A DNA stretch of 20,438 bases. It comes from a virus. The stretch lies in IMG/VR virus record IMGVR_UViG_3300044712_000290, positions 1 through 20,438 of that record; one strand, 5' to 3'. Below the pieces are notes generated by a model, which saw nothing but the letters and a program-made list of their open reading frames with translations, did not search any database and was not told the DNA's origin. This document shows, piece by piece, positions 6,232-19,977 of this stretch; position 1 is the stretch's first letter, and each line of letters begins with the position of its first letter. Position numbers and translations under genes: made by a program.

Positions 6232-6819
6232 ATGACTGATGATGTAATTATTTTTGGATGCTCGCCTTTTGTGAATGAAATAAAAGAGGATATTCCAAAA
6301 CTACAAGAAAAATATACAACAATCGGCATTAATATGTTTCCTGTTTATTACCCGAACGTTAATCATTGGTTTTTTTACGACGACCAAGGAATTGATATTT
6401 TAAAAGAACATTACAAAGGTCAAAAGATACATACCAGAGAAGCCCTGATGGGACATTTAGACCTATTAAATATAACAAACTTTGAATGCTTCAAGCCCAC
6501 AGAGGGCTACATCGACAAAGAAAACGAAAACTCCCTTTTATTCGTAAATTACACAATAAGCTTAGTTGTTCATTGGTGTATAAGAAAAGGGTTTAAAAAT
6601 ATATATTTTATCGGTATTGATATGGATTCAGAGGATTGGTTTCATTTCTTTGAACCAGATTATGCGAGATTTTCACATCACAGATACCAAAAACAGACAA
6701 TGAAATGGATTTATGACCTACAAGAATATATAAATATTTATCAAGTCAATCCGAGCAATACATTGAAATTACCTAAAAAGAATATAAAGGATTTATTAAA
6801 TGCCAGATACAATAATTAA
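6232..6819 (+). CDS. GT42/DUF115-like glycosyltransferase-type accessory protein
   Basis: 195 aa, not a structural protein. It has a Rossmann-type start, VIIFGCSPF (residues 5-13), then GINMFPVYY (32-40), the segment SLVVHWCIRKGFKNIYFIGID (110-130), a histidine pair SHH (148-150) and a late IYQVNPSNTL (169-178). From memory, this order parallels Campylobacter Cst sialyltransferases (GT42): GNGPSL, an N-containing strand, a helix leading to a GID motif, an active-site His and an NPxS-like end. It also parallels DUF115-type proteins. The first motif is altered (GCSPF instead of GNGPSL), so donor use or activity may differ. The protein could glycosylate virion proteins or alter host surface glycans. 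It follows a terminator, has Shine-Dalgarno AAAGAGGA, and overlaps the next small gene. The family call is tentative. Confidence 0.5.
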   Translation: MTDDVIIFGCSPFVNEIKEDIPKLQEKYTTIGINMFPVYYPNVNHWFFYDDQGIDILKEHYKGQKIHTREALMGHLDLLNITNFECFKPTEGYIDKENENSLLFVNYTISLVVHWCIRKGFKNIYFIGIDMDSEDWFHFFEPDYARFSHHRYQKQTMKWIYDLQEYINIYQVNPSNTLKLPKKNIKDLLNARYNN

Positions 6820-7488: not shown

Positions 7489-7790
7489 TGTTCACACATC
7501 TTTTAAATCAAACAATAACACTGAAAGTAACTAACGGAACGGATGAAAACTCTGCTCCGATTATAAGTTCAACTAAAACAGGCGTAAAGTGTCGTATTGA
7601 TTGGAAGAACTCACTTGTAACTACTTCACAAAGCCGGCAAATAACCTCAAAGGCTAGTATTCTTTTCGAAGAAGAAACCGCAAAGATAGGCGATATTGTT
7701 ACAATTAATTCAATAGACTACACAGTTATTCAAGCAAGTCCTAAGTATGATTTTGACGCCAACTTTATAATAAATGAAATTTTAATTTAA
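7488..7790 (+). CDS. Head closure / stopper-type head-tail joining protein
   Basis: 100 aa, small and beta-rich: LNQTITLKVTNGTDE, then TGVKCRIDWKN, SKASILFEEE, KIGDIVTINSIDYTVI. This matches the beta-barrel head completion proteins that follow the adaptor in siphophages. These form a ring beneath the adaptor and hold DNA in. Recognition rests on size, strand pattern (the xIGDxVTINSxDYTVIxA segment) and position rather than on a strict motif. The stop overlaps the 3' end of the opposing HNH fragment by 4 nt. Confidence 0.7.
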   Translation: MFTHLLNQTITLKVTNGTDENSAPIISSTKTGVKCRIDWKNSLVTTSQSRQITSKASILFEEETAKIGDIVTINSIDYTVIQASPKYDFDANFIINEILI

Positions 7791-8077
7791 AAAGTTCTTA
7801 ATATTTTGCGTTGTTGTTCTGCCATAGTTTTAGCCTCATCCAACGATTTACAGTATTTAAAAAACTGACACTTCCCATTTTTAGAAAATTTCACTGACCA
7901 ACCTTGTAATCTAGTATTCCAAGATACATTAAGACAATTAGCAGAATTATTTTTCTGGTGTGATTTTCTATTTATTGAATTATCTGAATTATTACAAATT
8001 CTAAGATTTGATTTCCTATTATCTAAAGTATTATGGTTTATATGGTCGACATATTCAGAAGTATTCACAGTATTCAT
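7787..8077 (-). CDS. HNH homing endonuclease, C-terminal fragment (HNH plus AP2-like)
   Basis: 96 aa as an ORF from ATG 8077, but it is the second half of a gene split by a frame change. The HNH core is complete: VDHINHNTLDNRKSNLRIC with H12, N20 and N24, then NSDNSINRK, followed by an AP2-like DNA-binding end (NVSWNTRLQGWSVKFSKNGKC, then SLDEAKTMAEQ). The frame stays open upstream of 8077 and encodes IDGKLKTKYLHRFIM, the usual strand before the HNH motif, so the real protein starts in the other fragment. The gene runs against the structural genes, in the gap between stopper and tail completion genes, as free-standing homing genes often do. Confidence 0.75.
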   Translation of the reverse strand: MNTVNTSEYVDHINHNTLDNRKSNLRICNNSDNSINRKSHQKNNSANCLNVSWNTRLQGWSVKFSKNGKCQFFKYCKSLDEAKTMAEQQRKILRTF

Positions 8078-8103
8078 TATAAAGCGATGTAAATATTTTG
8101 TTT

Positions 8104-8457
8104 TTAATTTGCCATCAATTCTTTCTTTATATTGAAATAATAATTATCTATATCTTTTGAATAATGAGCAAATAAGTGACCTAGTTTTTTTATTTTAGGC
8201 AAATCTTCTAAATCAATTAGACATTTTATTACTTTGTCCTCAAAAAATATTTCTACAATATCATCAACAGTATTAATTTTATTAAAATCTTTTAGCCTTA
8301 CCTTGCCAAGTCTTTTTATATTTAATCTTTCGGCTTTGGCTTTTATTGAAATCCAAGTTCTATCAGGTAAAAGTTTTAAAATCCCAGATTTAGTCAATTT
8401 AAGATAATCATTTTGTAATACTTCAATTTCTTTAGCAGTCCATAGTTTATTAACCAT
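8104..8457 (-). CDS. HNH homing endonuclease, N-terminal fragment (SANT/HTH-like)
   Basis: 117 aa ending at TAA 8104-8106. Residues 6-49 (WTAKEIEVLQNDYLKL, then LLPDRTWISIKAKAERLNIKR) are the helix-turn-helix of the SANT or GcrA-like kind that leads many phage HNH enzymes. Residues about 66-112 (FFEDKVIKCLIDLEDLPKIKKLG, DNYYFNIKK) are the beta domain that normally precedes the HNH core. The last residues (ELMAN) are off-frame. A -1 shift near 8119-8125 would join this to the downstream fragment and give about 223 aa, a normal length. The Shine-Dalgarno GGAGGT lies 8 nt before ATG 8457, and a TATAAT promoter lies further upstream. Confidence 0.72.
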   Translation of the reverse strand: MVNKLWTAKEIEVLQNDYLKLTKSGILKLLPDRTWISIKAKAERLNIKRLGKVRLKDFNKINTVDDIVEIFFEDKVIKCLIDLEDLPKIKKLGHLFAHYSKDIDNYYFNIKKELMAN

Positions 8458-9349: not shown

Positions 9350-10213
9350 ATGGCACTTGAAACAGTTACAAAATTATACGGGGTTGATGATATTAAATTA
9401 TTCCCTGTAACAGAGGATTCAGCATCAGCTTTTACATATGGCTCTGAAGTTGACGTACCGGGGGCGAGACAAATTTCATTAACCTTTGAAATAGAATCAA
9501 AAGAATTAAGAGGCGATGAAAAATTAATGGATTTAGTATCTAAAGCTAAATCAATTACTGCGAAAGTAGAAAACGCAAAATTAAGTTTAGATGTATTGAC
9601 TACAACTTTAGGCGGTAGCGTTTCGTCTGATTCTAACACGGCAACATTCTCTTTTGGAAGCAACGCAATTATCCCATATTTCCAACTACACGCACAAATT
9701 AAACAAACTGACAATTCAGGTGGCGACCTTCACTTTGTTTGCTATAAAACTAAAATTACATCTTTCCCTATCAACGGCACTCAAGATGATTATGCAATCT
9801 GTACTTTTGAAGTAAAGGGAACGTTCACTAATTATGAGTTCTCTGGCGAATCAAAACTAATGGATATAAAATTAAATGCCACAGCTACAGATATTGCAGG
9901 CGTAGGAAGTGCAACAGCAGCAACAACATCATTATCTACAAATATTGTTAAAACTGATAGCGGCGGCGTTATCGGCGTTAGTGTTGCGGGCGTTAAATTC
10001 GCAAGTGAAAGCGCAGCAGAAAGCACATCTAATTATACGTTTAGCTATGGTACAACAGGATTAACAGTAGGGGCAATTACTTATATTAACCCTAACGTAG
10101 TAGCAATGACATTTACAGGAACAGCAGCAGCAGGCACATTATCAATAACTCCAAAAGCAGCAGTAATGGCAAACGGAGTACAAGCATCGGCAGCAACATT
10201 TACAATGACATAG
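9350..10213 (+). CDS. Major tail (tube) protein with C-terminal Ig-like domain
   Basis: 287 aa. The tube domain covers about residues 1-175: an early LYGVDDIKLFPVTED, then DVPGARQISLTFEIESKELRGDE and an IICTFEVKGTF-like strand set, typical of lambda gpV-like tube proteins. A linker rich in Ala and Thr (about 176-195) leads to an Ig-like domain (about 200-287) with NYTFSYGTTGLTVGAITYI and GTLSITPKAAVMANG. Such domains decorate the tail surface and are optional for tube assembly. The ribosome binding site AGAAAGGA is among the strongest here, as expected for an abundant protein. A terminator follows. Confidence 0.85.
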   Translation: MALETVTKLYGVDDIKLFPVTEDSASAFTYGSEVDVPGARQISLTFEIESKELRGDEKLMDLVSKAKSITAKVENAKLSLDVLTTTLGGSVSSDSNTATFSFGSNAIIPYFQLHAQIKQTDNSGGDLHFVCYKTKITSFPINGTQDDYAICTFEVKGTFTNYEFSGESKLMDIKLNATATDIAGVGSATAATTSLSTNIVKTDSGGVIGVSVAGVKFASESAAESTSNYTFSYGTTGLTVGAITYINPNVVAMTFTGTAAAGTLSITPKAAVMANGVQASAATFTMT

Positions 10214-10219
10214 ATTGAC

Positions 10220-10244
10220 GGGGGAGAAATCCCCCTTATTTTTT
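10220..10244 (+). terminator. Rho-independent terminator after the tail tube gene
   Basis: GGGGGA (10220-10225) pairs with TCCCCC (10230-10235) around a GAAA tetraloop, followed by TTATTTTTTG. It lies 7 nt after the stop and would lower transcription of the chaperone and tape measure genes relative to the tube gene. Confidence 0.85.
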
Positions 10245-10255
10245 GAGGAGAGAAT

Positions 10256-10660
10256 ATGGAAGTAGAAGATATTTTTAATATACCAGAAAAATTGGTAATT
10301 AATGGTAAAGAATATGATTTTGAGTTTGATAACAGAGCATTTGCTACACTCGAAGGGTTAACGCAAAAAGGAACGTACAAGATACGTGAATTATTGCTTG
10401 ATAACAACCTCACTTTGAACGAATGTACAGAGCTTGTTTGTTGCGGATTAATCAAGAATTATAAGGCAGATGAAATAAGCGTTATTCGCCAAGAACTACA
10501 AAAAAGCCCTTCTGTCTGGACGAGCAATAATGATGCTATCTTAAAAGCGTTTTTAAAGCCGTTAATGCCTCCTGAAATCTACTTAAAAATGGAAGAAGTC
10601 AAGGCAAAGTTACAAAAGCTTGTGGACAAGCCCGAAAAAAAAAAGAAACCGAAGAAATAA
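10256..10660 (+). CDS. Tail assembly chaperone, short form (G-like)
   Basis: 134 aa, the product when no frameshift occurs. It begins with a strand pair (LVINGKEYDFEFDNRAFATLEGL), followed by helices to about residue 120, the pattern of lambda G-type chaperones (a small beta region, then a helical body). The C-terminus is lysine-rich (KPEKKKKPKK) because it reads through the slippery run. It sits between tube and tape measure genes, exactly where chaperones coat the tape measure during tail assembly. The Shine-Dalgarno GAGGAGAG precedes the ATG. Confidence 0.88.
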   Translation: MEVEDIFNIPEKLVINGKEYDFEFDNRAFATLEGLTQKGTYKIRELLLDNNLTLNECTELVCCGLIKNYKADEISVIRQELQKSPSVWTSNNDAILKAFLKPLMPPEIYLKMEEVKAKLQKLVDKPEKKKKPKK

Positions 10661-10866
10661 ATTGGGCAGAAATGCACGTTTACTCAACAACAATGTTGAG
10701 ATGGAGTGATAACGCTTTTTGGAACGCAACACCGAGAAAATTTCACGCTTGTTGTATTTCATTTGCGGAATTAAATAAAAAACCAGAAGCACCAGCGCAA
10801 GATGTTTTGACTGGCAGCGATGCAATAAAAGATATGATTGGAACAGTAGGAAAAATAAAGGTTTAA
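10256..10866 (+). CDS. Tail assembly chaperone, -1 frameshift fusion (G-T-like)
   Basis: Expected product of 203 aa when ribosomes slip back one base at 10639-10645: 130 residues of the short form, then 73 residues in the -1 frame (ETEEINWAEMHVYSTTMLRW, then SDNAFWNATPRKFHACC). The extension has the T-domain look (NWAEMHVY, AFWNATPRKF), which recruits tube subunits. The frame is open without interruption from before the slip to the TAA at 10864-10866. An ATG at 10672 has no convincing ribosome binding site, so a separate gene is unlikely. The stop lies 1 nt before the tape measure ATG. Confidence 0.88.
10639..10645 (+). promoter_or_regulatory. -1 ribosomal frameshift site A_AAA_AAG
   Basis: A run of ten A followed by G (10635-10645) gives the heptamer A_AAA_AAG in the correct phase (codons 10640-10642 and 10643-10645). 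The zero-frame stop follows 12 nt later (10658-10660). A short hairpin, GCTTG/CAAGC (10618-10622 with 10627-10631), lies just upstream. No strong downstream stem was seen. Confidence 0.88.
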
Positions 10867-10867
10867 A

Positions 10868-13051
10868 ATGGCTGATACTGGACAAAATGTAGGTGCAATA
10901 AATGTAACGATGGGGCTTGACAGCTCCAAGTTTAAAGCTGCATTAGGGCAAGCACAAGGGTTGACTACGTCTTTTTCTGGGATGGCAAAAATGGCTTTAG
11001 GCGGAATTGCAGCAGGATTCTCACTAGGCGCTATTGTTAATGAAATGGGAAAAGCATACAAGGCAGCAGAAGAAGCAATAACAATAGAAAAACAATTAAA
11101 CGCCACACTAATGGCTACGGGCTATGCAGCAGGACTAACACAAGACCAGCTAATCAATATGGCAAGTGCTATGCAAGATTTAACAGGCGAAAATGATGAA
11201 GTAATTAAATCCGCTGAAAATATCCTTTTGACTTTTAGAAATATTAACGCTGATATATTCCCTGAAACATTGCAATTATCACAAGATATGGCAACTACAA
11301 TGGGACAAGACCTTAATAGCGCAATTTTACAAGTCGGTAAAGCATTAAATGACCCAATCAAAGGAATGACAGCATTATCAAGAATGGGCGTAGCCTTTAC
11401 TCAACAACAAAAAGACCAAATTAAAACACTAGTGCAAAGCGGACAAGCCCATAAAGCACAAGCAGTAATCTTAAATGAACTTAAAAACGAGTTTGGCGGG
11501 GCTGCTCAAGCATCTAAAACTTACTCACAACAAACCACAAATGATACAGATGACTTAAGAGAAGAATTAGGGAGATTAATCGGCTTAGACAATCCATTAA
11601 CTAAGTTTTGGGCTAATTTCGTAAAAGGATTAAAGGACACTGTATATGAAGTAAGAGTTTTAAAATCTAATATAGCGGATTTGAGACTAACTGAGTTGCA
11701 GGATAGATTAAATAAAATAACAAAAGACCAAAAAGAAATGACACAGTGGTGGTCTGGAGGAGCAAACTATAACAAAGAACGAATAAATGCCATTGAAAAA
11801 GAGCGCCAAACCATCCTAAAGCAAATAGATGCAGTAAAAGCAAGAGACAAAGCAAACGCAGAAACAGGAAAGCAAACGCAAGCGGGCTTAAATTTCAACA
11901 CCGGCACAACATCAAAGACTAAAAAAGACAATCCAGCACTTGACGCTTATAAAAGTTTTATTGATGAATTCAAACAAGCTAACAATGACTACGAAGCAAC
12001 TTTAAAAGCTAAAAAATACGTTGAAGAAACTCTCGGGATGTCTGCTATCCAAGTAGATAAAGCAGGCTACGACAATGCAATAACCGCATACAAGGATTAT
12101 TATTCAAAGATAGCTGAGATTAACCAATCAGAGGCGATAAATAAAGGTATTCTTTTAAAACGTAACGAGGAAAAACTACAAGAAGATTTAAAACTAATAT
12201 CCTTAAATAAAACACAAGAGGCTTTAATTGCTCAAAATGAGTTAATAAAAAACTATCAAGAGCAATCTAAATCAATCGAAAATGCTACTCAAGCAGATGG
12301 CGAACTCGGAGGAGTTTTAGGCTCTTTCCAAAGCGGCTATGCTCAAAAACTAGAGATTCTAAAATGGTACTACGACGAACGAGACAAGATAACCAATACT
12401 GCCAATATTACTAATGAACAACAGCTAGAGGCTTGGGGGCAACTAAATATTTTAAAAACTAAAAAGCTGGCGGAAGTAAATAAACAAACCGTAAAGGATG
12501 AAAGACAAAGAATAGCTGAAATATTTGGCAATTCTCTGGATACTATGTTGACCAGCTATGGCGGTTTCTCCGTTAGTATGCAGCAACTAGTGTTAAATCT
12601 TGGCAGAGAGCTATTAAGCTATGAACTGAAAAAGGCTATAGACCACATCAATATTGCACAAATGGAAGCCGTCGCAATAACTGCTATTCAAGCGGCTATG
12701 GGTTTTGTCACTGGCGGAGTCAGCAATATCGCTAGTAGCATTACTGGGCTACTAGGATTTAAAAAAAATCACTCAGGCGGATATCAATTACCGGGCACAA
12801 AAGAACAACTTGCTTTATTAAAGGGCGGTGAGCGTGTTTTAAGCCCTGCTGAAACCACTAGCTATAATAACGGGGAGCAAGGTGGCATAGGTAAGGGCAG
12901 CACTATAGTTTACGCTCCGCAAATAAAGGCAATGGACTCCAAAGACGTATCCAGATGGTTTAATGAAAATAAAAACCAAATCATAAACATAATTGCGCAA
13001 GGGGCTAAAGATAATACTGGGAATTTGAGAACTATTATACAGTCAGTTTAG
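10868..13051 (+). CDS. Tape measure protein
   Basis: 727 aa, the longest tail-assembly gene and directly after the chaperones. The N-terminal region (1-230) has the family pattern: GAINVTMGLDSSKFKAALGQ, a hydrophobic stretch MAKMALGGIAAGFSLGAIVNE, and the segment NDEVIKSAENILLTFRNI followed by SAILQVGKALNDPIKGMTAL. The middle (about 235-590) is charged and helical. The end has a hydrophobic part (MGFVTGGVSNIASSITGLLG, about 617-636), then NHSGGYQLPG and KGGERVLSPAETT, a frequent C-terminal motif. At about 0.15 nm per residue this predicts a tail near 110 nm. Shine-Dalgarno AAAGG. The stop overlaps the 3' end of the opposing cargo gene by 4 nt. Confidence 0.93.
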   Translation: MADTGQNVGAINVTMGLDSSKFKAALGQAQGLTTSFSGMAKMALGGIAAGFSLGAIVNEMGKAYKAAEEAITIEKQLNATLMATGYAAGLTQDQLINMASAMQDLTGENDEVIKSAENILLTFRNINADIFPETLQLSQDMATTMGQDLNSAILQVGKALNDPIKGMTALSRMGVAFTQQQKDQIKTLVQSGQAHKAQAVILNELKNEFGGAAQASKTYSQQTTNDTDDLREELGRLIGLDNPLTKFWANFVKGLKDTVYEVRVLKSNIADLRLTELQDRLNKITKDQKEMTQWWSGGANYNKERINAIEKERQTILKQIDAVKARDKANAETGKQTQAGLNFNTGTTSKTKKDNPALDAYKSFIDEFKQANNDYEATLKAKKYVEETLGMSAIQVDKAGYDNAITAYKDYYSKIAEINQSEAINKGILLKRNEEKLQEDLKLISLNKTQEALIAQNELIKNYQEQSKSIENATQADGELGGVLGSFQSGYAQKLEILKWYYDERDKITNTANITNEQQLEAWGQLNILKTKKLAEVNKQTVKDERQRIAEIFGNSLDTMLTSYGGFSVSMQQLVLNLGRELLSYELKKAIDHINIAQMEAVAITAIQAAMGFVTGGVSNIASSITGLLGFKKNHSGGYQLPGTKEQLALLKGGERVLSPAETTSYNNGEQGGIGKGSTIVYAPQIKAMDSKDVSRWFNENKNQIINIIAQGAKDNTGNLRTIIQSV

Positions 13052-13596
13052 TTATAAGCCTCTATTACTTTCCTAGTGCCTATAATCTTCCCAGAATTAC
13101 TATAGCAAATATCGCCTTTACAGTGGGCATTTAAATTACCATTCTTGTCATATCTATAATTATCACCATATGAAATATTGACAGTAATATAGACCAAGTC
13201 CCCCTTTGTGTTATAAGAATAGCTTTTATTTGGGTAAATAGTGTTATGTTCTTGCTCGTTAACATCAATTCCGATTAAGATATTACCAAGATAATAGAAT
13301 GAATAAAACGGGTCGGACTTATATGTAACCACATACGCAGTTAACCCCTTTGTCTTTAATTGTTCCAAATCCCTATCGTACAAAGCAATATTATTTCTTA
13401 AAGCATATTTATTTTCTTTCGCGTTGGGGTCAAAAAGGTTCGGCGTTATATATTTAGCTTTGTCAATTTTATATTGCACTCCCTCAAACGCAATCTTTCT
13501 AACAGTATCAACATTATATTCAATATTTCCATTAAGAGTTTGGGCTAAAGCAGGCAAAGCAATAAATAAACTTAATATAACAAATAACTTTTTCAT
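13048..13596 (-). CDS. Exported protein of unknown function (cargo gene 2)
   Basis: 182 aa with a clear SPase I signal peptide: MKKLFVILSLFIALPALAQ, predicted cut after ALA at residue 18. The mature part is rich in Tyr and Asn. Late residues contain a repeated strand-turn pattern (YSYNTKGDLVYITV, then YRYDKNGNL), loosely like YD/RHS-type beta turns, and two cysteines (CKGDIC) six residues apart that could form a disulfide. No family is recognised. It is the downstream partner of the exported gene at 13599-13937, starting 2 nt after that gene's stop, with GAGGT as ribosome binding site. Not a structural protein by position or strand. A role in the envelope, such as superinfection exclusion, is inference. 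Confidence 0.75.
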   Translation of the reverse strand: MKKLFVILSLFIALPALAQTLNGNIEYNVDTVRKIAFEGVQYKIDKAKYITPNLFDPNAKENKYALRNNIALYDRDLEQLKTKGLTAYVVTYKSDPFYSFYYLGNILIGIDVNEQEHNTIYPNKSYSYNTKGDLVYITVNISYGDNYRYDKNGNLNAHCKGDICYSNSGKIIGTRKVIEAYN

Positions 13597-13598
13597 AA

Positions 13599-13937
13599 TT
13601 AAATACCTCTTATTTTTAAAATAGTAATTTCACCATTTGAAGCCTTTTTGATACGTCTATAATACTTCATATCTCCCTTTTTCATAATAAGGGCTACGGC
13701 AGGCTTCTTCCCTGTCATTTTTGAATAATAAAGACTTTGTCCTATAGATTCAGCCCATTTGTGAGCAAATTCAAACTCGACAGCATATTCAGGGGTTAAG
13801 CAGTCAACCCTTGTTTTGTCGGGCAACTCATACTCTGATATGCCACCGTTAGCGTTGCACCAAGGCACAGCATAATCTTTTTCTAAAGCCTGAACGGGCA
13901 GCGATAAAAAAAACATTATTAAAATTAATTTTCTCAA
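13599..13937 (-). CDS. Exported small protein with PD-(D/E)XK-like pattern (cargo gene 1)
   Basis: 112 aa starting at TTG. The start is chosen because GGAGGT lies just ahead and because MRKLILIMFFLSLPVQA forms a complete signal peptide; the next ATG (residue 8) would lose the charged n-region. The mature part reads TRVDCLTPEYAVEFEFAHKWAESIGQSLYYSK, written here in pieces: RVDCLT (43-48), EYAVEFEFAHKW (50-61), ESIGQSLYY (63-71), then TGKKPAVALIM (75-85). D45, E54 and E56, K60 and Q67 resemble a PD-(D/E)XK nuclease core in strand-strand-helix order. C27 and C46 could pair. I recall similar uncharacterised secreted proteins in Gram-negative bacteria. Nuclease activity is inferred, not shown. Confidence 0.72.
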   Translation of the reverse strand: MRKLILIMFFLSLPVQALEKDYAVPWCNANGGISEYELPDKTRVDCLTPEYAVEFEFAHKWAESIGQSLYYSKMTGKKPAVALIMKKGDMKYYRRIKKASNGEITILKIRGI

Positions 13938-13958
13938 ATAACCTCCAATTTTAGATTC

Positions 13959-13986
13959 AGTTTAACTCAAAAGTTAGGTTTTTCAA
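13959..13986 (-). promoter_or_regulatory. Possible promoter of the exported cargo pair
   Basis: Read on the - strand: TTGAAA (13986-13981), a 16-nt spacer, and TAAACT (13964-13959). The -10 match is moderate. It faces the GGAGGT and TTG start at 13937, leaving a leader of about 15 nt. Confidence 0.4.
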
Positions 13987-13989
13987 CTA

Positions 13990-15330
13990 ATGACATATCC
14001 AACATTTAACATAACTTATAATTATGCCTATTCTACCTCAATAGAATTTATGACTCAAATTAACGAGAAAATGAAGGGCAGAGAGCAGCGTTATCCTCAA
14101 TGGACTTATCCTAAGCGTACCTTTACGCTCACCTTTGAGAAAACACCGGCAAAAAGAGAAGAATTAGAAGCCTTTTTTATTGACGTAATGGGACAAGCTG
14201 GTAAATTTTATTGGACTTGGAACGCTTCAAATGGTGGGGACGATAAAACTTACGAATGTACTTTTGATAGTGACGATTTTAAACAACAAGTCTATGATTT
14301 AGGATTTAGCAAAGCTAAATTAAATCTTGTTTGCATAGATAATAACCCTGTTGAAGATGTCGCCGAATTAGATTTCTATCATAAGGCTGAATGTGATTTT
14401 AATATAAGCTTTTACACTGTATTAGATAAGATTTTCACAGCTCAAAATAATAGAAAATCTTATTGGGATTCCCCTAAAAAATCTTGGACTTTATCTTTTG
14501 AGAAAACACCAGAGGTAAGAAAACAGCTTGAAGCGTTCTTTATTGCCAAACGTGGCAAATTTCGCTCGTTTGAATGGACTTGGGCAACAGACAGGGGCGG
14601 TGACGGGCAAACTTACATTGTAAGATTCGATATAGATAGTTTAGATATTGATATTTTAGACTCTGGCTATGGTACGTTCCAGCTAAAACTTAAAGAAGTA
14701 TTCCCGACACCTAATCCATTATTAGAAGTTGAAAAAGACGAGATAATACCTCGTAAGCTATTAAAGATAGAACTTGAAGGTGGCTCAATTTATGTTTTAG
14801 ACAATGAAACATTAGAAGAGCTTAATTATAACGGTGAGATGTATTTAGGTGCGCCACTATCGCACGGGGAAATAAAAAAAGACGACAATTCAAGCGTATC
14901 AAAGCTTGAAATATCGCTTTCTAATGTCGGGCTTGCTATAAGCGGAATTATCGGGCAAAGAGGAGATGTAATAACCGGCTCTCCTGCGGTGTTAACTCTT
15001 GTATTTTTAAATATAAATACTAACGAGATGATACCAGATTTAAAAGATATTTTATGGTCTGGCTATTGCAACAATCTCAAATTAGATTATGAAACAGCGA
15101 CTATGGACGTTGAAACAGCACTAGGAGGTTATGAGAAACAAGCTCCAGTTATTAGATATCGTCCGACTTGTCAAGTGAGAAGATTCAAAGATATTAGATG
15201 CGGTTATATCGGTAGTGAAACGTCTTGTGATAGAACATTCGCTACTTGTAAAGCGTTGGGTAATCAAGGTAATTTTGCAGGATTCCCTAGTGTAGTAGTT
15301 GAAACAACCATAAAGGCGGCGTCAAGATGA
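13990..15330 (+). CDS. Fused distal tail and hub protein (two gpM-like domains plus gpL-like)
   Basis: 446 aa. Residues about 1-115 and 128-235 are two copies of a minor-tail domain (lambda gpM or DUF2460-like). Compare KRTFTLTFEKTPAKREELEAFF with KKSWTLSFEKTPEVRKQLEAFF at the aligned positions, each followed by an aromatic FYWTW or FEWTW. The rest (about 236-446) is gpL or DUF2163-like, ending in four cysteines, C394, C404, C413 and C420, and NFAGFPSV. In lambda gpL four C-terminal cysteines hold a [4Fe-4S] cluster, and the last CX6C spacing is the same here. The hub closes the tube and carries the J protein. The ribosome binding site is weak (TTAGG, distant), perhaps because the cargo cassette replaced the original upstream region. 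Confidence 0.82.
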   Translation: MTYPTFNITYNYAYSTSIEFMTQINEKMKGREQRYPQWTYPKRTFTLTFEKTPAKREELEAFFIDVMGQAGKFYWTWNASNGGDDKTYECTFDSDDFKQQVYDLGFSKAKLNLVCIDNNPVEDVAELDFYHKAECDFNISFYTVLDKIFTAQNNRKSYWDSPKKSWTLSFEKTPEVRKQLEAFFIAKRGKFRSFEWTWATDRGGDGQTYIVRFDIDSLDIDILDSGYGTFQLKLKEVFPTPNPLLEVEKDEIIPRKLLKIELEGGSIYVLDNETLEELNYNGEMYLGAPLSHGEIKKDDNSSVSKLEISLSNVGLAISGIIGQRGDVITGSPAVLTLVFLNINTNEMIPDLKDILWSGYCNNLKLDYETATMDVETALGGYEKQAPVIRYRPTCQVRRFKDIRCGYIGSETSCDRTFATCKALGNQGNFAGFPSVVVETTIKAASR

Positions 15331-15704: not shown

Positions 15705-18519
15705 ACTATTATATGAATTATCAGGAAACCTACAATTTTCAATAGTTATAGGTTTAATAATTTATTTTTGTTTTGTTTTTGATATTTATAATCTAACACG
15801 TTATAAAAAAGCCCAATTAAACTTTGTAGTTTCTGCAATAGTAGGATTTTTAGCTGCAAATATCGCTATGGCGGTCGGTGTTTCGATAACAACTGCAATA
15901 ACCGTGGGGAATATTATAGGCGTCATTGGCGCGGTCTTAATATACGGCGGCATAGCTTTATCGGTAATGAACAAGCCCTCTGCTAATGCAGATTTCACAG
16001 TATCATCTCCTACCTATTCACCAACAAAGCAAACACAAACAGACCCTAACCTACCTTTACCGATGCTTTATGGCACTGCCAAGCTCGCAGGAAATAGAAT
16101 TTGGCAAGCTGACGATGCGGCTACTTACGTTAAACGTATTGTAGCTTTTGCGGAAGGTGAAATAACAGACTTTACCGATATTAGATTAAATGATATTCCT
16201 ATTAATGAAATATCTGGCATAACAGTAAATAAATATTATGGAACTTCTACACAAGAAGTAGATAGTATTATTTCAGGTGCTAATCATTTAGCAAGATGCG
16301 AAACCGTCGGGAGTTTAAAAAATGTTGCATATTTAGCTATAACAGTACCTGCAACAAATGACATTCAAGCAAATTATAACCTTACAACTGTTGTTAAAGG
16401 TCGCAAGATAAGAGTTTATACAGATGAAAATACTTATACTACCGAGTATAGCGAAAATCCTGTTTGGGTTTTATTAGATTTCTTAACTTCTTATAACGCT
16501 TTAGGCCTCGGGTTAAATAATGATGGTTCTAAAAATGACACTTTAATAAAAACTATTTTTGACCTTGATACGTTTATTGAAAGTGCAGATTTCTGCGACG
16601 AATTAATAGAAAGCGCTTTAACGGGCACAGTATCTACAAATGGAACATCCGTAACAGGAGTAGGAACAGCGTTCAAGACTGAATTATCAATCGGACGTAT
16701 AATTTCAGTAAGCGGAGAAGATAAAACCGTAACCGCTATTACGGACGACACACACTTGACGGTAGATACGTCATTTACAACAATGACAGGCCAAGCAGCT
16801 ACCGAAAAACAACCTCGCTTTTCCTTCAATATGATTTTTGACAGCCAAACAAGTGTTAGAAGTCTTTTAGACGAAATATACAGAAATTGTAGGGGTGGTT
16901 TATTTACTAGAAATGGGCAGTTTCAGTTTAAAATTGATAAAGCAGAAACAATAAGTAAGGTCTTTACCGAAGATGATATTATCAAAGGTTCTGAAATATT
17001 CCATACCATACCGAGCGAAGAGCATTACGATATTTTAAAATGTGTTTATATTTCGCCTAACCACGAATGGCAAAAAGTAGAAGCTTTTGCAGAAATTCCA
17101 GAATACAGGGATGGTGTACCAATTGAGCACAGCGTTAATATGTACTCTTGTACGAGTTTTAAACAGGCTTCACGCTTAGCTTGGTATTACGTAAATTCAA
17201 AAACACTTTGCCCTAACTTCGGAGAGTTTAAAACAAATTATAGGGCGTATGACTTAGAGGTTGGCGACGTAATCCAACACTATAGCATTTTAATGGGTGC
17301 TACTCTTGTAAGCAAAGTAACGAGTGTAACTAACGACGGAGCTGGTATTTTTACAGTAAACTGGCGCAACTATGATGCTGATTTGTATAGCGATACTTTA
17401 GGTAGCAAACAACCTAAGGTTTTGGTTTCTGTATTAAAGGATGTTTATGCCTATCCAGACGACGTACAAAACTTTAGAGTTTCTCAAAACCAAAACCTAC
17501 TAGAGTTTAAATGGGTATCTGTTGAGGATGCAACATATGAAATAAGACAAGGTGACACTTGGGATTCTGCTACTCTAATAGCTACAAATATTGCAACTAC
17601 TTCTTACACAATAAATTTGAATCAAAGAGGTATATTCACATATTGGATAAAATCAAGAAATAATTATAACTACTCAATAAATGCAACCAGCGATGTCGTA
17701 AATGTTCAGTATTTACCTAATATGAATGAAATAATTTCAGAGGATATCCTAGCAAATGTTACAGGTAGTGCAAAACCTTTTGTTAACGCTAATGGGGATA
17801 ATCTTGTAGATTCTAACGGAAATAATCTCGTTTCTTCAAATAGCAGTATTGGGGAAAATATTTATATTTATAATGGGAAGCTGAAGCTTATACCTACTAC
17901 TTTGTGGCAGGATTTAACTCCTGAAGCTTGGGCAGACAGTGGAACTCGTTATTATTCTGACGGTTTAAACAGATGGGGAACGCAAACAAGAACAAGCGGG
18001 AATTATGTTTCTCAAATATTTGATATTGGGGCTAATTTACAAAATATAGTTACATTTAATTATGATTTCTATAAAAGTGATGATTCTGCAACTGCCACTT
18101 TCGAGTGGAAATATTCTGAAGACAACGAAACGTGGAGTGACTGGACTTTAATTTCTACAGGGTCGTATAAATTCAGATATTACCAAGTAAGAATTACTTT
18201 GAGCAACCCTAATAGCGCAACTTTATATATAACAAAATTTATCATAAATATTGATGTACCTGATAGAGAAGAAAATTATACAAGCAGGGAAATAACTAAT
18301 GCCAGTAACGGCATCACAATTTCTTACGCCACAGACGTAGAAAGCAAAATAGCCGACGATTTTATTAAGGAAGAACCGCATATTTTAGCTACTCCGTTAA
18401 GCAATAATACTTACCCGGTTGTTACTTCTTCAACATCATCAAATTGCACGGTAAAGCTTTATACAAATACAGGTACATTGACTACAGGACTTTTGAACAT
18501 AAGAGTTAAAGGATATTAA
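15697..18519 (+). CDS. J-like tail tip / host-specificity protein with membrane segments
   Basis: 940 aa. Hydrophobic N-terminus: a membrane-like helix at 13-29 and two more at about 43-62 and 67-91. Then the J-type hub: LPMLYGTAKLAGNRIW (about 121-136), VKRIVAFAEGEITDFTDIRLND, and a late QFQFKIDKAE and DLEVGDVIQHYSILM. An inserted module at about 309-367 (GTVSTNGTSVTGVGTAF, then TDDTHLTVD) is a known add-on in phage tail proteins. A fibronectin-like domain covers about 586-675. A short repeat, NGDNLVDSNGNNLV, follows at about 693-706, then beta domains (WGTQTRTSGNYVSQIFDIGAN) to the end. It anchors the fibres and probably touches the receptor. No gpI-like gene precedes it. Confidence 0.85.
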   Translation: MIKLLYELSGNLQFSIVIGLIIYFCFVFDIYNLTRYKKAQLNFVVSAIVGFLAANIAMAVGVSITTAITVGNIIGVIGAVLIYGGIALSVMNKPSANADFTVSSPTYSPTKQTQTDPNLPLPMLYGTAKLAGNRIWQADDAATYVKRIVAFAEGEITDFTDIRLNDIPINEISGITVNKYYGTSTQEVDSIISGANHLARCETVGSLKNVAYLAITVPATNDIQANYNLTTVVKGRKIRVYTDENTYTTEYSENPVWVLLDFLTSYNALGLGLNNDGSKNDTLIKTIFDLDTFIESADFCDELIESALTGTVSTNGTSVTGVGTAFKTELSIGRIISVSGEDKTVTAITDDTHLTVDTSFTTMTGQAATEKQPRFSFNMIFDSQTSVRSLLDEIYRNCRGGLFTRNGQFQFKIDKAETISKVFTEDDIIKGSEIFHTIPSEEHYDILKCVYISPNHEWQKVEAFAEIPEYRDGVPIEHSVNMYSCTSFKQASRLAWYYVNSKTLCPNFGEFKTNYRAYDLEVGDVIQHYSILMGATLVSKVTSVTNDGAGIFTVNWRNYDADLYSDTLGSKQPKVLVSVLKDVYAYPDDVQNFRVSQNQNLLEFKWVSVEDATYEIRQGDTWDSATLIATNIATTSYTINLNQRGIFTYWIKSRNNYNYSINATSDVVNVQYLPNMNEIISEDILANVTGSAKPFVNANGDNLVDSNGNNLVSSNSSIGENIYIYNGKLKLIPTTLWQDLTPEAWADSGTRYYSDGLNRWGTQTRTSGNYVSQIFDIGANLQNIVTFNYDFYKSDDSATATFEWKYSEDNETWSDWTLISTGSYKFRYYQVRITLSNPNSATLYITKFIINIDVPDREENYTSREITNASNGITISYATDVESKIADDFIKEEPHILATPLSNNTYPVVTSSTSSNCTVKLYTNTGTLTTGLLNIRVKGY

Positions 18520-18520
18520 T

Positions 18521-19219
18521 ATGACCGACACAAGACCAGTAAATGAGAACTCAGCTACATCAACAGATAGTAGCGATTATTTATTAATGGACAGTTTAAC
18601 AAACGGAACGCAAAAAATATCTCCGTTAAATTTGCCTATCCCAAATTCAGTGCAAACAGAACTTGATTTAAAAGCCGTAGATAGCGCAGTAGTTCATAAA
18701 ACTGGCGGCGAAGAAATAACAGGGCAAAAGAATTTTACTAATGCAAGTAATATTATGTATGGCGTTGGTACAAATCTAACCGCTTTAAATGCTACTAATA
18801 TAACAAGTGGGACTTTAAACGCCGCAAGATTGCCAGCGTCAGGGGCTACGGCAGCGACTTATAAAAATCCTACAATGACAGTTGATGTCTATGGCAGAAC
18901 AACATCTATAAGTAATGGAATCGATTACGAAGCAGCAAGCACGAAAACGGGCAATTATACTCTTACGCAATCTGATAATGGATGTAGAATAAGAGTAAAT
19001 ACTTCCACATCCGCCACAATAACAATACCTGATTCATTAAGTGCAGGGTTTTCTTGTTTGGTAATTCAAAAGGGTAGCGCCCAAGTATCGTTTGCAACTA
19101 GCGGCAGTATGGTTTTACATTCAAGTAATGGGTATACAAAAACAGCAAAACAGTATTCTATAGTAACAATAATTATAGACGAAATTAACGAGGCTATAAT
19201 TGGTGGAGATTGTGTATAA
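18521..19219 (+). CDS. Tail fibre protein
   Basis: 232 aa. The N-terminus is polar (RPVNENSATSTDSSDYLLMD) and resembles the attachment part of short fibres. It continues with VVHKTGGEEITGQKNF and the typical trimeric-fibre stretch LTALNATNITSGTLNAARLP (about 86-105). The C-terminal domain (about 140-232) contains YTLTQSDNGCRIRVNTSTSATITIP, quoted here to show the strand pattern YTLTQSDNGCRI and TITIPD, seen at the ends of many phage fibres. Shine-Dalgarno AAAGGA. The stop overlaps the next start (TAATG). Receptor recognition is the likely role; the target sugar or protein cannot be told. Confidence 0.78.
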   Translation: MTDTRPVNENSATSTDSSDYLLMDSLTNGTQKISPLNLPIPNSVQTELDLKAVDSAVVHKTGGEEITGQKNFTNASNIMYGVGTNLTALNATNITSGTLNAARLPASGATAATYKNPTMTVDVYGRTTSISNGIDYEAASTKTGNYTLTQSDNGCRIRVNTSTSATITIPDSLSAGFSCLVIQKGSAQVSFATSGSMVLHSSNGYTKTAKQYSIVTIIIDEINEAIIGGDCV

Positions 19220-19977
19220 TGATTCCGAGTTTAGTTGGCTGCTTAAAGCCAAAATCTGAAAAGATAATTAGTATTTCTGCCACAAGGTCATTTTTAAGTG
19301 TCCATACTGATTCGAGGGTTTTGTATTCAACAAATAGCGGAGCTAGTTTTAATCAGTTCGAGCTACCTGTGGAAAATATATTAAAAGTCATAATGTGTGA
19401 CACTACCACATTTTTTGCTGCTACGACTTCAGCTATTTATTATTCAACAAATAGCGGGGTAAGCTGGACTTCTTCAAATTCGCCTATAATAATAGTAGAT
19501 TTATGCGTCTCAGGTTACGAATCCGTGCAAGTTATTAGTGCATCAGCCAGAAGATATTTTTATATTTCAACTGGCTGGTCTAATAGTATGTATGTTCCAT
19601 CCTCCGGACTAGTTAGAGTTTCAGGAGGGGATAACACGACCGCGGATGTATGGGTAACGACTCCTTCGACGCCATATTATATAGACGATGGATTCTTCAC
19701 AAGTTCAATCACCGGGACTTCTCCTGCAAATGATATTATCGCTCTTGAAGCTGACTATTATGGTAATTATTTGTATGTATTAACCCCTTCAATAATAAAA
19801 TATTCAACAGCAGACAGCTTGGATAGCTGGACATCTTGGAATTTACCTATTAATGGTGCAATTGGCATATCAATAGGCTATTCAAATAAAAATTTATTTT
19901 ATATCGCAACTACCAATAAATTATATAAAGCCACCTCTAAGGGTGGTTCTTGGGCGTTGGTATCATTACCCATTTAA
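19219..19977 (+). CDS. Asp-box repeat (beta-propeller-like) tail protein
   Basis: 252 aa from ATG 19219. A longer TTG start at 19210 is open but lacks support, whereas the ATG shares an A with the preceding stop. It contains four Asp-box-like turns: STNSGASF (37-44), STNSGVSW (76-83), STADSLDSW (196-204) and ATSKGGSW (238-245), each after a strand ending in Tyr (VLYSTN, IYYSTN, IKYSTA, LYKATS) and followed by a short strand with LP or SP. These BNR turns mark sialidase- or sortilin-like beta propellers. The length allows a partial or small propeller, or one blade set per chain. Catalytic sialidase residues (FRIP arginine) are not seen, so sugar binding is more likely than cleavage. Confidence 0.7.
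   Translation: MIPSLVGCLKPKSEKIISISATRSFLSVHTDSRVLYSTNSGASFNQFELPVENILKVIMCDTTTFFAATTSAIYYSTNSGVSWTSSNSPIIIVDLCVSGYESVQVISASARRYFYISTGWSNSMYVPSSGLVRVSGGDNTTADVWVTTPSTPYYIDDGFFTSSITGTSPANDIIALEADYYGNYLYVLTPSIIKYSTADSLDSWTSWNLPINGAIGISIGYSNKNLFYIATTNKLYKATSKGGSWALVSLPI
19324..19457 (+). repeat. 17-bp repeat coding Asp-box turns
   Basis: TATTCAACAAATAGCGG occurs at 19324-19340 and 19441-19457, offset by 117 nt (39 codons), with identical bases also at third positions. It encodes YSTNSG in two propeller blades. Confidence 0.8.

Follow-up and report, generated by a model that had tools for sequence, protein, structure and literature searches.

The stretch of DNA considered here, in the following called the window, is a virus fragment from IMG/VR (IMGVR_UViG_3300044712_000290, 20438 bases) carrying a siphophage structural operon on the + strand in the order terminase, portal, capsid, tail tube, tape measure, tail gene, NlpC-like gene, tail tip protein and fibre genes, whereby the names of some of these genes rest on position and on homology to sibling phages. 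Two genes located on the minus strand (Table 1) separate the tape measure gene from the tail gene that follows it; their products, referred to as P1 and P2, look like a lysogen's kit to block other DNA at the cell envelope. An earlier sequence-only reading of the window had reported two exported-protein genes running against the tail operon, and both open reading frames (ORFs) were recovered with the same boundaries, on the minus strand and with signal-peptide leaders. These leaders, identified by reading the sequence, are of the standard Sec type, with MRKLILIMFFLSLPVQA preceding LEKDY in P1 and MKKLFVILSLFIALPALA preceding QTLNG in P2. The same reading had assigned GGAGGT-type ribosome binding sites to both genes, which holds true for P1, whereas the site of P2 reads AGAGGT. 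As the gap from the P1 stop to the P2 start amounts to 2 nucleotides (nt) and the P2 ribosome site lies within the end of P1, the two genes are probably translationally coupled; at the other end, the stops of P2 and of the tape measure gene converge with an overlap of 4 nt. The possible promoter that had been proposed upstream of P1 is present as a site scoring 9/12, but promoter-like sites are no commoner in the window than in shuffled sequence (5 found as compared to 5.7 expected), hence it is unproven.

Table 1. Features of the reversed gene pair and its surroundings (window positions)
Feature	Position	Strand	Basis or remark
Tape measure gene	10868..13051	+	PHROG tail tape measure, E=1.4e-27
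P2, exported beta-repeat protein, 182 amino acids (aa)	13048..13596	-	family linked to tape measure/tail genes in Gastranaerophilales phages and host elements
P2 signal peptide, residues 1-18	13543..13596	-	cleavage presumably after ALA; sequence reading
P2 ribosome binding site AGAGGT	13605..13610	-	inside last P1 codons
Variable part of cargo slot	13597..13989	.	P1 here; other small genes in L319/L320; none in L316
P1, exported putative PD-(D/E)XK-fold nuclease, 112 aa, TTG start	13599..13937	-	model, homolog alignment
P1 signal peptide, residues 1-17	13887..13937	-	cleavage presumably after VQA; sequence reading
P1 ribosome binding site GGAGGT	13941..13946	-	sequence
Possible sigma-70-like promoter TTGAAA-16-TAAACT, upstream of P1	13959..13986	-	not above chance
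Tail gene downstream of slot	13990..15330	+	conserved, 60-71% identical in sibling phages and host elements

The AlphaFold model of P1, built from 102 aligned sequences (predicted local distance difference test, pLDDT, 95), revealed the alpha-beta-beta-beta-alpha-beta core of PD-(D/E)XK nucleases, composed of a helix (20-29), three strands (33-37, 43-47 and 51-57), a second helix (58-75) and a fourth strand (78-85), beyond which a helix (90-100) and a strand (105-110) are predicted. In this model the putative active site is formed by D45 on strand 2 and by E54 and residue 56 on strand 3, while K60 and a Q67xxxY71 motif reside on the helix following strand 3. The two acids D45 and E54 and the lysine K60 are kept in 106/106 homologs, matching the placement in PD-(D/E)XK enzymes. 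The nuclease pattern suggested from the sequence (D45, E54/E56, K60, Q67) is thereby borne out for the fold, for the conserved acids and for the positions of the residues, but not for E56, which is not the residue typical of the family. A structural search of BFVD identified a phage PD-(D/E)XK domain (probability 0.97) and, as a strong match, the same-family member A0A248SKB8, which is 33% identical to P1. The predicted fold and the putative active site are therefore considered well supported, and P1 may be a nuclease. Matches to giant-virus KilA-N proteins were also obtained from BFVD (probability 1.0); the resemblance is to parts of these proteins from mimivirus, moumouvirus and Feldmannia virus and suggests a DNA-acting domain common to phages and eukaryotic viruses. 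Weak matches in the Protein Data Bank (PDB) include ERCC4-type folds (FAAP24, FANCM, ERCC1).

For the unusual position of the lysine a precedent was described in COG4636, in which it has migrated to the next helix, including the order PD-EXD-K, listed for one member (Feder and Bujnicki, PMC551604). P1 shares with COG4636/Uma2 the abbbab core, the strand 2 acid, the E-x-D of strand 3 and the lysine on the following helix, but differs from it in its small mature size (about 95 residues), its export, two invariant cysteines and the QxxxY-like motif. Comparison of P1 with the Uma2/COG4636 profile (PF05685) gave no similarity (hhalign E=0.38, probability 0.2%), which rules P1 out as an Uma2 member, and the likeness is therefore one of active-site design. 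Tox-REase-9 (PF15650), likewise of restriction-endonuclease fold, was the top Pfam match of P1 (E=0.043, 14.5 bits as compared to a cut-off of 27.3 bits) and gave weak matches with 3/106 family members (best E 0.023); P1 stays below the cut-off and lacks a polymorphic-toxin architecture.

Using the family profile, relatives of P1 were identified in 228 viral-contig and 523 genome stretches (the latter from one-per-species genomes), the best genome matches being mostly from Gastranaerophilales, while a plasmid search with P1 gave no match. The family carries no name in any library searched and is widespread in phage and bacterial genomes. Thirteen residues are invariant in 106 diverse homologs (E19, C27, E35, R43, D45, C46, A52, E54, K60, E63, G66, Q67 and Y71). 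An N-terminal hydrophobic stretch was found in 139/145 homologs, so that the export noted earlier for the window copy proves to be a trait of the family. Further candidate identities were rejected: a match to virginiamycin B lyase (PDB phmmer E=0.0056) is short and due to chance, as the family profile does not reproduce it, the NCBIfam search gave a chance match only, and an assignment as a known defence protein found no match in PADLOC.

The gene neighbourhood of P1 in other phages is informative with respect to the phase of the phage life cycle in which it may act. A CI-like repressor lies within 6 genes of P1 in 30/77 distinct viral loci, with a peak at position -2 (11 loci), upstream on the same strand, and S24 repressors together with helix-turn-helix (HTH) domains are the commonest Pfam families among 124 close P1 neighbours on viral contigs. 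Furthermore, the product of the same-strand gene at position -1 is exported or membrane-bound in 16/40 cases, as compared to 47/348 for more distant genes (p=1e-4), whereby these neighbours do not belong to one single family. Among annotated examples, a P1 homolog adjoins a repressor in Nitratiruptor phage NrS-4 and in Dulem virus 31, and lies near one in NrS-3. As CI/S24 repressors are the commonest phage neighbours, P1 looks lysogen-expressed, and its synthesis in the lysogen is presumed in the following. An export of P1 near lysis, in which case it would serve as a lytic-phase protein that degrades host DNA or lysate, could be read from a few viral loci where P1 lies near genes for DUF1353 (3), a lysozyme (1) or an M15 peptidase (1); yet lysis genes are few and exceeded by lysogeny regulators among the neighbours, P1 is oriented opposite to the late operon in the window and also has chromosomal copies, which makes such a function highly improbable. 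Dulem virus 31 (PP511318.1) is filed under Microviridae, yet its genome of 35.8 kb contains genes for an exonuclease, a replisome organizer and a CI repressor, which makes its taxonomy look wrong.

The origin of the insert was addressed by comparison with sibling phages (contigs L316/L317, L319 and L320), which possess the same layout as the window, namely tape measure gene (+), P2 (-), slot and tail gene (+). The sequences flanking the slot agree to about 98.8% between L319 and L320, but in the stretch from P2 to the tail gene start, which is occupied by P1 in the window, L319 carries a gene of 76 aa and L320 two genes of 62 and 60 aa, which are unrelated, while L316 possesses no gene at this place. 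In L301, a more distant relative (capsid 72% identical), the next gene starts 1 nt past the tape measure gene and cargo is absent, as are two other inserts of the window. The occurrence of unrelated genes in nearly identical phages documents a swappable cargo slot, with P2 as the resident of the junction and P1 as one of several interchangeable genes. The cargo status of the insert, as proposed earlier, is thus well supported by its absence from relatives, by the exchangeable content of the slot and by the linkage of P1 to repressors at other loci. The two contigs L319 and L320 represent an almost controlled natural experiment, as they differ mainly in cargo, and this in phages of Gastranaerophilales, which are little studied. 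In the siblings the P2 frame extends upstream into a small GAGRP-type, ribbon-helix-helix-like domain (L319:4944-5630, L320:4805-5491 and L316:5261-5995, all on the minus strand), which would possibly give a fusion of a DNA-binding, a transmembrane and an outer domain; L316 in addition possesses an internal ATG with AAGGAGG, from which P2 alone could be made.

P2 was modelled (pLDDT 89) with a helical N-terminal part followed by about 10 strands arranged as a beta-repeat. Three of 41 relatives match MORN_2 (best 1.8e-4) and 3 match RHS_repeat, all weakly, while P2 of the window matches neither, and assignments as TnpW or prephenate dehydrogenase were dismissed as chance matches. Single-sequence searches of viral and phage collections with P2 gave no match, and the viral P2 homologs were therefore reached through the sibling tail gene, which as a single query likewise found nothing but identified homologs when used as an alignment. 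Within one bacterial family, 50 of 117 genomes contain P2 homologs, in up to eight copies, and 15 of the same genomes contain homologs of the window tail gene; in most host elements carrying the latter, P2 copies lie beside or near a tape measure homolog or the tail gene. In the host-family genomes, L247-L260 and L263-L265 are scrambled chromosomal clusters of homologs of the window structural genes with a short tape measure homolog (about 300-340 aa), two of which adjoin the same chromosomal genes in different species, so that domesticated prophages or a gene transfer agent are possible.

Comparison of P2 paralogs within one element revealed a constant base and a diversifying tip, the N-terminal halves being at least 89% and the C-terminal halves 63-74% identical at the DNA level. 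Within L263, five paralogs (9732-10262, 10599-11114, 11477-11986, 17751-18263 and 19096-19605) share 95-98% identical N-terminal DNA, with almost identical protein, and possess diversified C-termini, and most are followed by a coiled-coil-like ORF of about 55 codons (LDKLRQEVIEFNK...); the set gives the impression of an exported protein that is being diversified by recombination. Such a combination of a constant leader with a variable domain, which marks P2 as a rapidly varying protein of surface type, hints at an envelope arms race. Within the tools and the literature searched, neither the P2 family nor the swappable slot next to it has been described.

The earlier proposal that P2 acts as the partner, anchor or inhibitor of P1 was not sustained, as every P2 homolog examined outside the window lacks an adjoining P1, and a lasting pair is consequently rejected. 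An apparent homology between P1 and P2 (hhalign E=1.7e-5) was not accepted either, since most of the aligned region consists of the signal peptides. P2 is durably associated with the tape measure and tail module in its own right, while P1 was added to the slot. This leads to the question of whether both genes are unrelated passengers, with P2 being a tail-linked accessory that serves in assembly, in lysis or in the interaction of the particle with a surface, and P1 having entered a permissive gap by chance. The lack of recurrence of the pair, the location of P2 next to structural genes in nearly all scrambled host elements and the acceptance of unrelated genes by the slot agree with it. Against this, P2 is oriented against the tail operon both in the window and in L316, L319 and L320, and it is diversifying, which is unusual for an assembly factor, and P1 was identified to be a maintained gene, because its catalytic-type residues, its leader and the coupled ribosome site are all kept. 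Two unrelated passengers are consequently regarded as unlikely.

Considering these data, P1 and P2 are tentatively suggested to form a moron-type envelope exclusion or conversion cassette of a temperate-type gut siphophage of Gastranaerophilales, a reading which is held at somewhat less than even chances. P1 would be secreted and, judging from its model, most likely be active as a PD-(D/E)XK-type DNase outside the cytoplasm, where it would spare the host chromosome, meet DNA crossing the periplasm and limit superinfection or other DNA entry. P2 would be a separate exported protein evolving beside the tape measure gene, and its constant N-terminus together with its diversified C-terminal sheet suggests binding to a variable envelope target, for which, by analogy with HK97 gp15, an incoming phage's tape measure or tip is the most plausible candidate. 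We infer the periplasmic location, catalysis, exclusion and the target of P2. The observation made in the sequence-only reading is thus confirmed, and its interpretation is partly supported.

Two known systems provide the framework for this proposal. SNIPE is an envelope-anchored nuclease which cuts phage DNA during injection at the cytoplasmic face by means of a GIY-YIG domain (PMC13190303). It shares with P1 the idea of a nuclease at the envelope and is linked to siphophage tape measure proteins, but SNIPE combines GIY-YIG and DUF4041 on an inner-membrane anchor facing the cytoplasm, whereas P1 is small, secreted and PD-(D/E)XK-like; P1 as SNIPE was rejected, as neither GIY-YIG nor DUF4041 was matched in Pfam. 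For P2, the exclusion proteins HK97 gp15 and TP-J34 Ltp are the closest analogues, which are reported to act on tape measures, with escape arising in tape measure or tail tube genes (cited in PMC10883804). Compared by description and not by sequence, they are small envelope proteins from siphophage prophages, as P2 is presumed to be from its leader, and P2 shares with gp15-like genes the location as an extra gene adjoining tail or tape measure genes in the window, the siblings and the host elements; P2 differs by its signal peptide and its predicted single-layer beta-repeat.

A number of findings weigh against the envelope cassette. P1 reached the cut-off of no Pfam, PHROG, NCBIfam or PADLOC family, and a fold search of the PDB gave no match below E=0.001. 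A small phage clade of P1 homologs (L069, L070, L076-L078) is leaderless; its members possess an extra cysteine before K60 and adjoin XRE-type regulators, so that a cytoplasmic version is possible. No repressor is located within the window, and the linkage of P1 to repressors is thus not seen at this locus. P2 also occurs at fixed chromosomal sites without phage genes, which would not be expected of a protein serving exclusion only. Position 56 of P1 is D in 105/106 homologs and E only in the window copy. This unique exchange raises the idea that P1 possesses the PD-(D/E)XK fold yet is no nuclease here, either serving in binding or being inactivated by D56E, and PD-(D/E)XK-like folds without activity are known. 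On the other hand, ExE pairs are functional in BamHI, the residues E19, D45, E54, K60 and Q67 are intact, and residues that stay strictly invariant among homologs of about 40-60% identity speak for a catalytic family, leaving only a slim chance for an inactive P1.

Finally, P1 is chromosomal in 78 of the 117 host-family genomes, mostly in one or two copies and with neighbours that recur in several unrelated settings, so that its role need not be anti-phage and the family is not restricted to phages. The tree places P1 of the window as the sister of 17 chromosomal copies (99/88), and the label phage or chromosome switches at least 8 times by well-supported branches. These findings favour an exported DNase for general handling of DNA at the envelope, be it the scavenging of extracellular DNA or the processing or limiting of its uptake, which was acquired from the host as a lysogenic conversion gene. 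The strong clustering of P1 with phage repressors and small exported genes, which suggests selection in lysogeny modules, speaks against this function, which is possible but on balance rather doubtful. Nothing computed separates exclusion from DNA scavenging.

The envelope cassette may be extended to a two-part system, in which P2, as a diversified exported sensor, would recognise the incoming tape measure or tip and P1 would cut DNA outside the inner membrane, amounting to periplasmic restriction, with self being spared by location alone; this version is considered improbable. If true, the P1 family, which combines a nuclease-type fold, export and linkage to prophage repressors, would represent a widespread class of secreted DNA-entry nucleases of phages and hosts, and an active P1 would complement SNIPE by a defence which acts on entering DNA outside the cytoplasm and relies on location. 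In being PD-(D/E)XK-like, secreted and linked to prophage repressors, the family, for which no library searched has a name, would vary two known themes, the nuclease superfamily and envelope exclusion.

Next to the gene pair, the structural operon of the window contains further inserts. At 7787-8457 (-), a second reversed insert, which is not present in L301 or L316, encodes an HNH endonuclease (PF13392, E=1e-5) adjoining a gene of 117 aa. Between the capsid and head-completion genes, an extra gene of 195 aa (6232-6819, +), without counterpart in L301, encodes a product with a weak MptE-like match, which is perhaps glycosyltransferase-like.

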